Origin: a virus
Virus record (IMG/VR): IMGVR_UViG_3300002835_001370
Coordinates: 1-20,567 of that record
DNA: 20,567 bases
Direction: 5' to 3' (one strand)
Part shown: positions 1,755 to 2,028 of the stretch, piece after piece
Numbering within the stretch: position 1 is the first letter of the stretch
Layout: every line of letters begins with the position of its first letter
Translations under genes and position numbers: made by a program
The notes under the pieces: generated by a model
The model's input: only the letters and a program-made list of their open reading frames with translations
Databases searched by the model: none
What the model was told of the DNA's origin: nothing

Positions 1755-1917
1755 CTTTCAATGCAACGCCTGCAATGTAGTGCAGGAACTGCATCTATCA
1801 GTTAACGAGTCAAGCAATGTGCCAACATGTAGCCTGTGTGAGGGTGACATGCGGCGTGTATTCACGCCACCTGCTGTGCACTTTAGAGGTCCAGGGTTTT
1901 ACAAGACTGGCGGTTAG
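1741..1917 (+). CDS. FmdB-family zinc-ribbon protein
   Basis: A 58-residue protein beginning MPQYDFQCNAC, the hallmark opening of the FmdB/CxxC zinc-ribbon family. The four zinc ligands are C8-x2-C11 and C30-x2-C33, followed by the typical tail with VHFRGPGFYKTGG, also usual in the family. I took ATG 1741 as the start because family members begin MPxY; an in-frame ATG lies three codons upstream. Bacterial members are annotated as putative regulators, but the biochemical role is not established. The gene follows the other zinc-ribbon gene with an overlap. Its last codons contain the -35 box of the promoter described at 1898. Confidence 0.88.
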   Translation: MPQYDFQCNACNVVQELHLSVNESSNVPTCSLCEGDMRRVFTPPAVHFRGPGFYKTGG

Positions 1918-1926
1918 TGCTATAAT
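1898..1926 (+). promoter_or_regulatory. Near-consensus sigma70-type promoter with extended -10
   Basis: TTTACA at 1898-1903, a 17-bp spacer, then TATAAT at 1921-1926 preceded by TGC (an extended -10). The -35 box lies inside the 3' end of the FmdB gene. Expected start of transcription is about G1933. No protein gene on the plus strand lies between here and the terminator at 1986-2028, so the promoter appears dedicated to a short non-coding transcript. It is the best promoter match I noticed in the window. Confidence 0.75.
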
Positions 1927-1932
1927 GATTTT

Positions 1933-2028
1933 GTCATAGGCGATTGGGGAAGTTGTCTATGGCTCTTTGAGGGAATAAAGCAAAAAAGCCCCCGCTCTTA
2001 GATTTCTCTAAGGCGGGGGTTCTTTTGT
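1933..2028 (+). ncRNA. Candidate phage small RNA (promoter-to-terminator unit, about 95 nt)
   Basis: The predicted transcript starts at about G1933 and ends in the U-run of the terminator. Hairpin 1 occupies 1933-1963: an 11-bp stem (5' arm 1933-1943, 3' arm 1953-1963, containing three G-U pairs) closing the loop UUGGGGAAG. It begins at the predicted 5' base. A short second hairpin (GC-UC bulge-UUU with AAAGC, 1962-1981) partly competes with the first. The terminator stem is the third. The only reading frame starting with ATG is three codons (ATG GCT CTT TGA at 1960), without a clear ribosome-binding site. The RNA is antisense to any late-operon transcript that reads past 2039. I know of no family it matches; this is inference from sequence alone. 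Confidence 0.5.
1986..2028. terminator. Strong bidirectional rho-independent terminator at convergent junction
   Basis: Stem 1989-2002 with 2007-2019: CCCCCGC pairs with GCGGGGG, then a bulged T1996, then CTTAGA pairs with TCTAAG, around a TTTC loop. The plus strand is followed by TTCTTTTGTTT; on the minus strand the complement of AAAAAA (1982-1987) gives a U-run. It stops the plus-strand transcript from the left and the late/lysis operon arriving from the right. Confidence 0.92.

Follow-up and report, generated by a model that had tools for sequence, protein, structure and literature searches.

The junction at which plus-strand transcription meets converging minus-strand genes in a virus record (the window, the whole stretch of 20,567 nucleotides analysed here) raises the question of what is made from a promoter that precedes no gene. 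The initial annotation had read the site as a stand-alone promoter-hairpin-terminator unit encoding an undescribed small RNA, which might regulate mRNAs through an exposed G-rich loop or act as antisense to late-operon read-through. The sequence indicates that the window very probably encodes a small phage RNA about 95 nt long, with the following surroundings:

1741-1917, plus strand: small FmdB-like zinc-ribbon gene (PHROG_1076, E 1.6e-5; Zn_ribbon_8, E 4.3e-8, just under the family cut-off)
1898-1903, plus strand: -35 box TTTACA, from a promoter scan; variants conserved in relatives
1918-1926, plus strand: extended -10 TGC-TATAAT (TGC 1918-1920, TATAAT 1921-1926), from the promoter scan; conserved in relatives
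1933-1963, plus strand: 5' hairpin of the RNA, from fold and covariation
1946-1952, plus strand: loop core GGGGAAG, equal to the core of the host RNA loop AAGGGGAAG
1964-1977, plus strand: unpaired linker (CUCUUUGAGGGAAU), from comparison with relatives
1978-2030, plus strand: bidirectional intrinsic terminator, from fold and sequence, separating the plus-strand unit from the converging minus-strand genes
2042-2224, minus strand: gene of a conserved 61-aa protein (PHROG_37724, function unknown) with at least 542 relatives

The zinc-ribbon gene, which has 13 close relatives, is the last plus-strand gene ahead of the RNA. The -35 box sits within its 3' end and the -10 box immediately past its stop codon, so that TTTACA is partly constrained by codons (GFYK). 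With a spacing of 17 nt and 11 of 12 consensus matches, this is the top-scoring promoter-like site in the scanned part of the window (1-6000). Such sites are no more common there than in shuffled sequences (4 found, 8.9 expected); the match alone therefore proves little, and it is the conservation of the promoter in relatives that makes it meaningful. The RNA is expected to start near 1933, about 6 nt past the -10 box. The predicted RNA has an intrinsic terminator and no coding sequence beyond the three-codon ATG frame noticed earlier (ATG GCT CTT TGA at 1956), which is not kept in relatives. The 61-aa protein, which we infer might be holin-like, has no match in the bacterial genomes searched.

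The hairpin at 1933-1963 has a minimum-energy fold of 13 bp at -16.3 kcal/mol (z -4.9); the 11-bp hairpin with loop UUGGGGAAG of the initial annotation is this fold with its two innermost pairs open. The whole RNA (1933-2031) folds at -48.8 kcal/mol (z -7.9), much of it contributed by the terminator. The unit described at the outset is confirmed and exceeds chance. The window has no family match in Rfam, all sub-threshold matches lying far below the cut-offs.

Conservation of the hairpin was assessed in an ascertainment-free set of loci fetched by neighbouring proteins alone, with the hairpin not used; the 61-aa gene served as one such neighbour. In the 13 loci fetched by the zinc-ribbon protein alone, the gene is followed by GGGGAAG in 12 and by GGGGAAU in one. 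Pattern searches enlarged the set to 34 distinct hairpins in a gapless alignment, and covariation was measured on the 25 that share one register. In these, 93.6% of stem cells are paired while the stem sequence is rewritten, and double-change cells number 119 against 40 +/- 5 in shuffles, figures that are inflated by the selection of the larger set on loop and stem. The compensatory changes proposed earlier as a check on the stem are found at every one of the 10 pairs, and the signal disappears once the partner is shifted by a single column. In viral contigs unrelated to the window, only one of 141 AAGGGGAAG sites has a closing stem of at least 6 bp; this control and the protein-fetched loci show that the signal is not produced by the choice of set.

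The stems contain 38 G-U cells against 2 A-C cells, which identifies the plus-strand RNA as the selected, functional strand. Since it is the structure and loop of the plus strand that are under selection, an antisense role against late-operon read-through is not supported. What stands of the initial interpretation is a small phage RNA exposing a G-rich loop, which is strongly supported by the constant loop, the covariation and the conserved promoter. In some relatives a shift in register pairs part of the AAG while the letters GGGGAAG stay unchanged, so that loop sequence as well as shape appears to be under selection. The full AAGGGGAAG loop is restricted to a subset of the phage members (L295, L299, L316 and L317); the window has UUGGGGAAG. 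Comparison of the relatives thus establishes, at the level of sequence, an RNA with its own promoter, a plus-strand-selected hairpin, a nearly constant GGGGAAG and a terminator.

Phage members take three forms. In the promoter-bearing form A, the -10 box ends 5-7 nt ahead of the stem in nearly all relatives, and this distance holds across different upstream gene contexts; most have a -35 box reading TTTACA, TTGACA or TCTACA at a spacing of 17-18 nt. Form B, to which about half of the distinct members belong, is promoterless, and its hairpin lies at or directly past the stop codon of a plus-strand gene, at the 3' end of the upstream mRNA. The label 'stand-alone' hence fits one subfamily only. 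Forms A and B occur once per long phage record. The position of form B, together with the constant presence of the same terminator beside the hairpin, would suit a purely cis-acting 3' element that stabilises plus-strand mRNAs or helps to terminate them at the convergent junction. A roadblock or stabiliser has no need of a constant 7-nt loop, however, the promoter-bearing form yields a gene-free RNA, and the host carries the same loop in a free-standing RNA (see below), so that we consider a role in cis alone improbable.

Form C, retrieved by its outer stem alone, is a longer hairpin that precedes other phage genes:

L781 33031, plus strand; L782 7552, minus strand; L046 3240-3282; loci L783-L812: form C hairpin with stem GGTGGAGGGG/CCCCTCTTCC

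It lies about 20 nt upstream of the genes. Its loop core is constant though unspecified in the search: nine of the ten distinct sequences read GGGGAAG, and the tenth is an unrelated match. Form C is present in the isolated Nanopelagicales phages E7 and F5, in which forms A and B were not found when the site corresponding to that of the window was checked. Across relatives, then, the pairing is kept, the promoter is absent from about half, and E7 and F5 lack the hairpin at this site.

Two observations concern phages outside these forms. At L004 4334-4372 and in its relatives (L019-L030), GGGGAAG occurs in a palindromic surround within a nuclease-like coding gene before the same terminator; its different register, a C-A mismatch and a low model score led us to reject it as a family member, and it is probably a coincidence of codons. 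Phages without the RNA (L002 4780-4950, L034-L038) have palindromes (TTAATTAATTAAT) in an AT-rich stretch at the same junction, which might be an origin or a different RNA.

Small genomes, a GC content of 48.6%, a rhodopsin-like motif and the isolation host of annotated relatives point to 'Ca. Nanopelagicales', an order of Actinomycetes with small genomes, as the probable host group. The only annotated relatives of the window are phages isolated on 'Ca. Planktophila' (PMC10202952). A WhiB gene, a mark of actinophages, is likewise present in relatives of the window, and tetranucleotide similarity agrees weakly with this host group.

A model built from the phage hairpins only (R1) was searched in 297 Actinomycetes genomes and gave three matches, two of them in genomes of 1.3-1.4 Mb. 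With E-values of 0.004-0.005 per genome over 297 genomes, these are not significant singly, and the case for the cross-match rests on all three falling in one RNA gene:

L396, about 1485-1560; loci L399-L449 and L485-L504: host RNA gene with loop GCAAGGGGAAGGC; no Rfam entry

This gene consists of a promoter, an outer stem doubling as terminator and an inner hairpin with loop AAGGGGAAG, with GGATAAC in the 5' internal loop. It is essentially single-copy, lies near YgjP-like, Zincin_2 or NUDIX genes, has covariation of its own and is seen again across its order and class. The loop GCAAGGGGAAGGC is nearly invariant, and the gene is found in about 100 of the 297 genomes: the host-RNA model matches 116 at E 0.01, mostly strongly, and an independent pattern of promoter and loop 107, against about a dozen for the reversed control. 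In the fetched loci, which span 47-78% GC, the loop core is kept while the stems vary. The host RNA has no credible match in Rfam 15; its identity with bacterial SRP RNA (RF00169) was rejected, the SRP RNA being located elsewhere in six of six genomes. Literature searches on the host RNA and on the loop sequence gave no relevant paper, and within Rfam 15 and the literature searched the phage RNA is indeed undescribed, as the initial annotation had it.

By sequence, then, the phage loop is identical to the best-conserved stretch of an Actinomycetes RNA that is single-copy and occurs in the probable host order as well. The phage members share with it the free-standing promoter-hairpin-terminator layout; in some relatives the linker position reads ACUACAUAUCGGAUAAA, within which UCGGAUAA is common to the host RNA. 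They differ in the order of motifs and in stems unrelated in sequence, and, whereas the host hairpin is nested in an outer stem that also terminates, the CGAAGYCC/GGGGRCUUCG terminator stem is absent from phage members, whose terminator is a separate element. In phages, the complete host model (R2) gives partial matches only, and no host-like full-length copy there has a convincing closing stem. The phage RNA is thus one that works like the host GCAAGGGGAAGGC RNA and is not filed as a member of its family. It is probably a surrogate or mimic of the host RNA loop, and would bind the same partner.

As to that partner, target prediction for the loop, also proposed at the outset, ranks the leader of a LysM gene first among 1161 leaders in G031, with the strongest duplex for both the host loop and the UUGGGGAAG of the window. 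The candidate site, CCUUCCCCAAGG, has 9 bp of perfect complementarity to the window loop. Permuted loops reach best energies as strong as the real one, so that duplex energy alone is no evidence. The leader motif recurs in the order:

L691-L720, e.g. L719 1501: CCTTCCCCAAGG hairpin in the LysM leader, directly past the LexA box

Of the 61 genomes in the order, 36 contain this 12-mer, against 3 for the reversed pattern; it was found by searching for the loop complement, and its conservation could have another cause. Of the fetched sites, 23 lie just past a LexA box and ahead of the LysM gene, in 17 distinct sequences with varying downstream parts. The small LysM gene stands between lexA and nrdR (gene order lexA-LysM-nrdR), and its LysM domain (PF01476) was confirmed in the G031 and G131 proteins. 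By these neighbours, the LexA box and the domain, the gene as read from sequence is in the position of DivS, ChiZ and YneA, DNA-damage-induced division inhibitors in other bacteria (PMC3989709), and by analogy its product is a candidate division inhibitor. G131 has the same RNA loop, yet its LysM leader retains UCCCCU only (6 bp). The host loop is also conserved in GC-rich Actinomycetes, while the leader count covers the 61 genomes of one order; conservation of the loop so far beyond that order is not accounted for by the pairing data. The opposite strand of the 12-mer (CCTTGGGGAAGG) was seen in an apparent mraZ leader in three genomes (L693, L699 and L700).

Other RNA partners fared less well. 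Pairing with 23S helix 89 was rejected, the host rRNA reading CUUGCCC and not CUUCCCC. CTTCCC is absent from the rRNA operon stretch of G031, leaving rRNA pairing by the full core unsupported, and CTTCCCC is not enriched at 1109 start sites, leaving broad control of ribosome-binding sites unsupported. The same two results would fit the main rival to LysM-leader pairing, an actinobacterial RNA-binding protein that recognises the GGGGAAG loop, with the host RNA as its normal ligand and the phage RNAs titrating or recruiting it. A loop constant at 47-78% GC amid varying stems speaks for such a protein, as do the GGGGAAG hairpins just upstream of phage genes, which resemble a cis site for a shared factor. 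The protein itself is hypothetical, however, and it does not account for the perfectly complementary site conserved in LysM leaders; we regard it as the less likely reading. Far less credible is a sponge for the actinobacterial 6C/B11 RNA, whose C-rich loops act on G-rich sites (PMC10470900) such as the phage loop would offer. The 6C RNA was not found in small genomes resembling the probable host, its loops are runs of C and not CUUCCCC, and the window gives no match to the 6C family model RF01066.

We thus lean, on the whole, towards a phage small RNA that mimics a host RNA loop, with the LysM leader as its proposed partner. The mimicry of the loop is well supported by the comparisons, as is the small RNA; the LysM mRNA is our best guess at a partner and a tentative one, and both this target and the direction in which it would be controlled are proposed. 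The phage RNA would copy the loop of the host RNA and bind the partner of the latter, a CCUUCCCCAAGG hairpin in the mRNA leader of the LysM gene, which lies next to lexA and is under LexA control. The GGGG of the loop would first kiss the CCCC loop of the leader, and the contact would then zip to 7-9 bp, keeping the LysM SOS product low during phage replication. In its most extended and rather doubtful version, the GGGGAAG host RNA shared by Actinomycetes would tune the LexA-controlled LysM division inhibitor, and freshwater actinophages would have captured its loop in several separate RNA formats, overriding the SOS division checkpoint during infection. The shared loop suggests that an ancient regulatory circuit of the bacteria, possibly one linked to the response to DNA damage, has been taken over by the phage.

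Most of what is known of phage small RNAs comes from enterobacteria and vibrios that use Hfq. The window adds a comparative, structure-backed RNA family from phages of a bacterial group that ranks among the most abundant in fresh water, and has uncovered a widespread actinobacterial RNA that is absent from Rfam and does not appear to be described in the literature searched. The shared loop and the conserved complementary leader reduce the question of function to a single base-pairing hypothesis.

Among the trans-acting small RNAs of phages and prophages, the closest parallels are PreS of lambda and DicF of the Qin prophage (reviewed in PMC12197685), small phage-derived RNAs that act on host mRNA as the window RNA would. 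DicF acts on cell division (ftsZ), and PreS is discussed in relation to SOS (PMC12197685). Both are Hfq-linked and enterobacterial, whereas the window RNA copies a conserved host RNA loop in actinobacterial phages. Mimicry within a host small-RNA circuit is how AgvB works, a mobile-element RNA from an EHEC prophage (PMC12197685); it mimics targets and blocks the host small RNA GcvB, whereas the window RNA copies the host RNA loop itself. The mycobacterial 6C/B11 RNA (PMC10470900) is similar as an actinobacterial hairpin RNA with conserved homopolymer-rich loops, reportedly independent of a chaperone, and differs in its opposite polarity (C-rich loops), its fold and its family model, which the window does not match. 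The mycobacteriophages D29, L5 and StarStuff (PMC5712189) also make actinophage non-coding transcripts, of unknown function; these arise from Pleft in a region of about 500 bp at the right end of the genome, with no such hairpin described.
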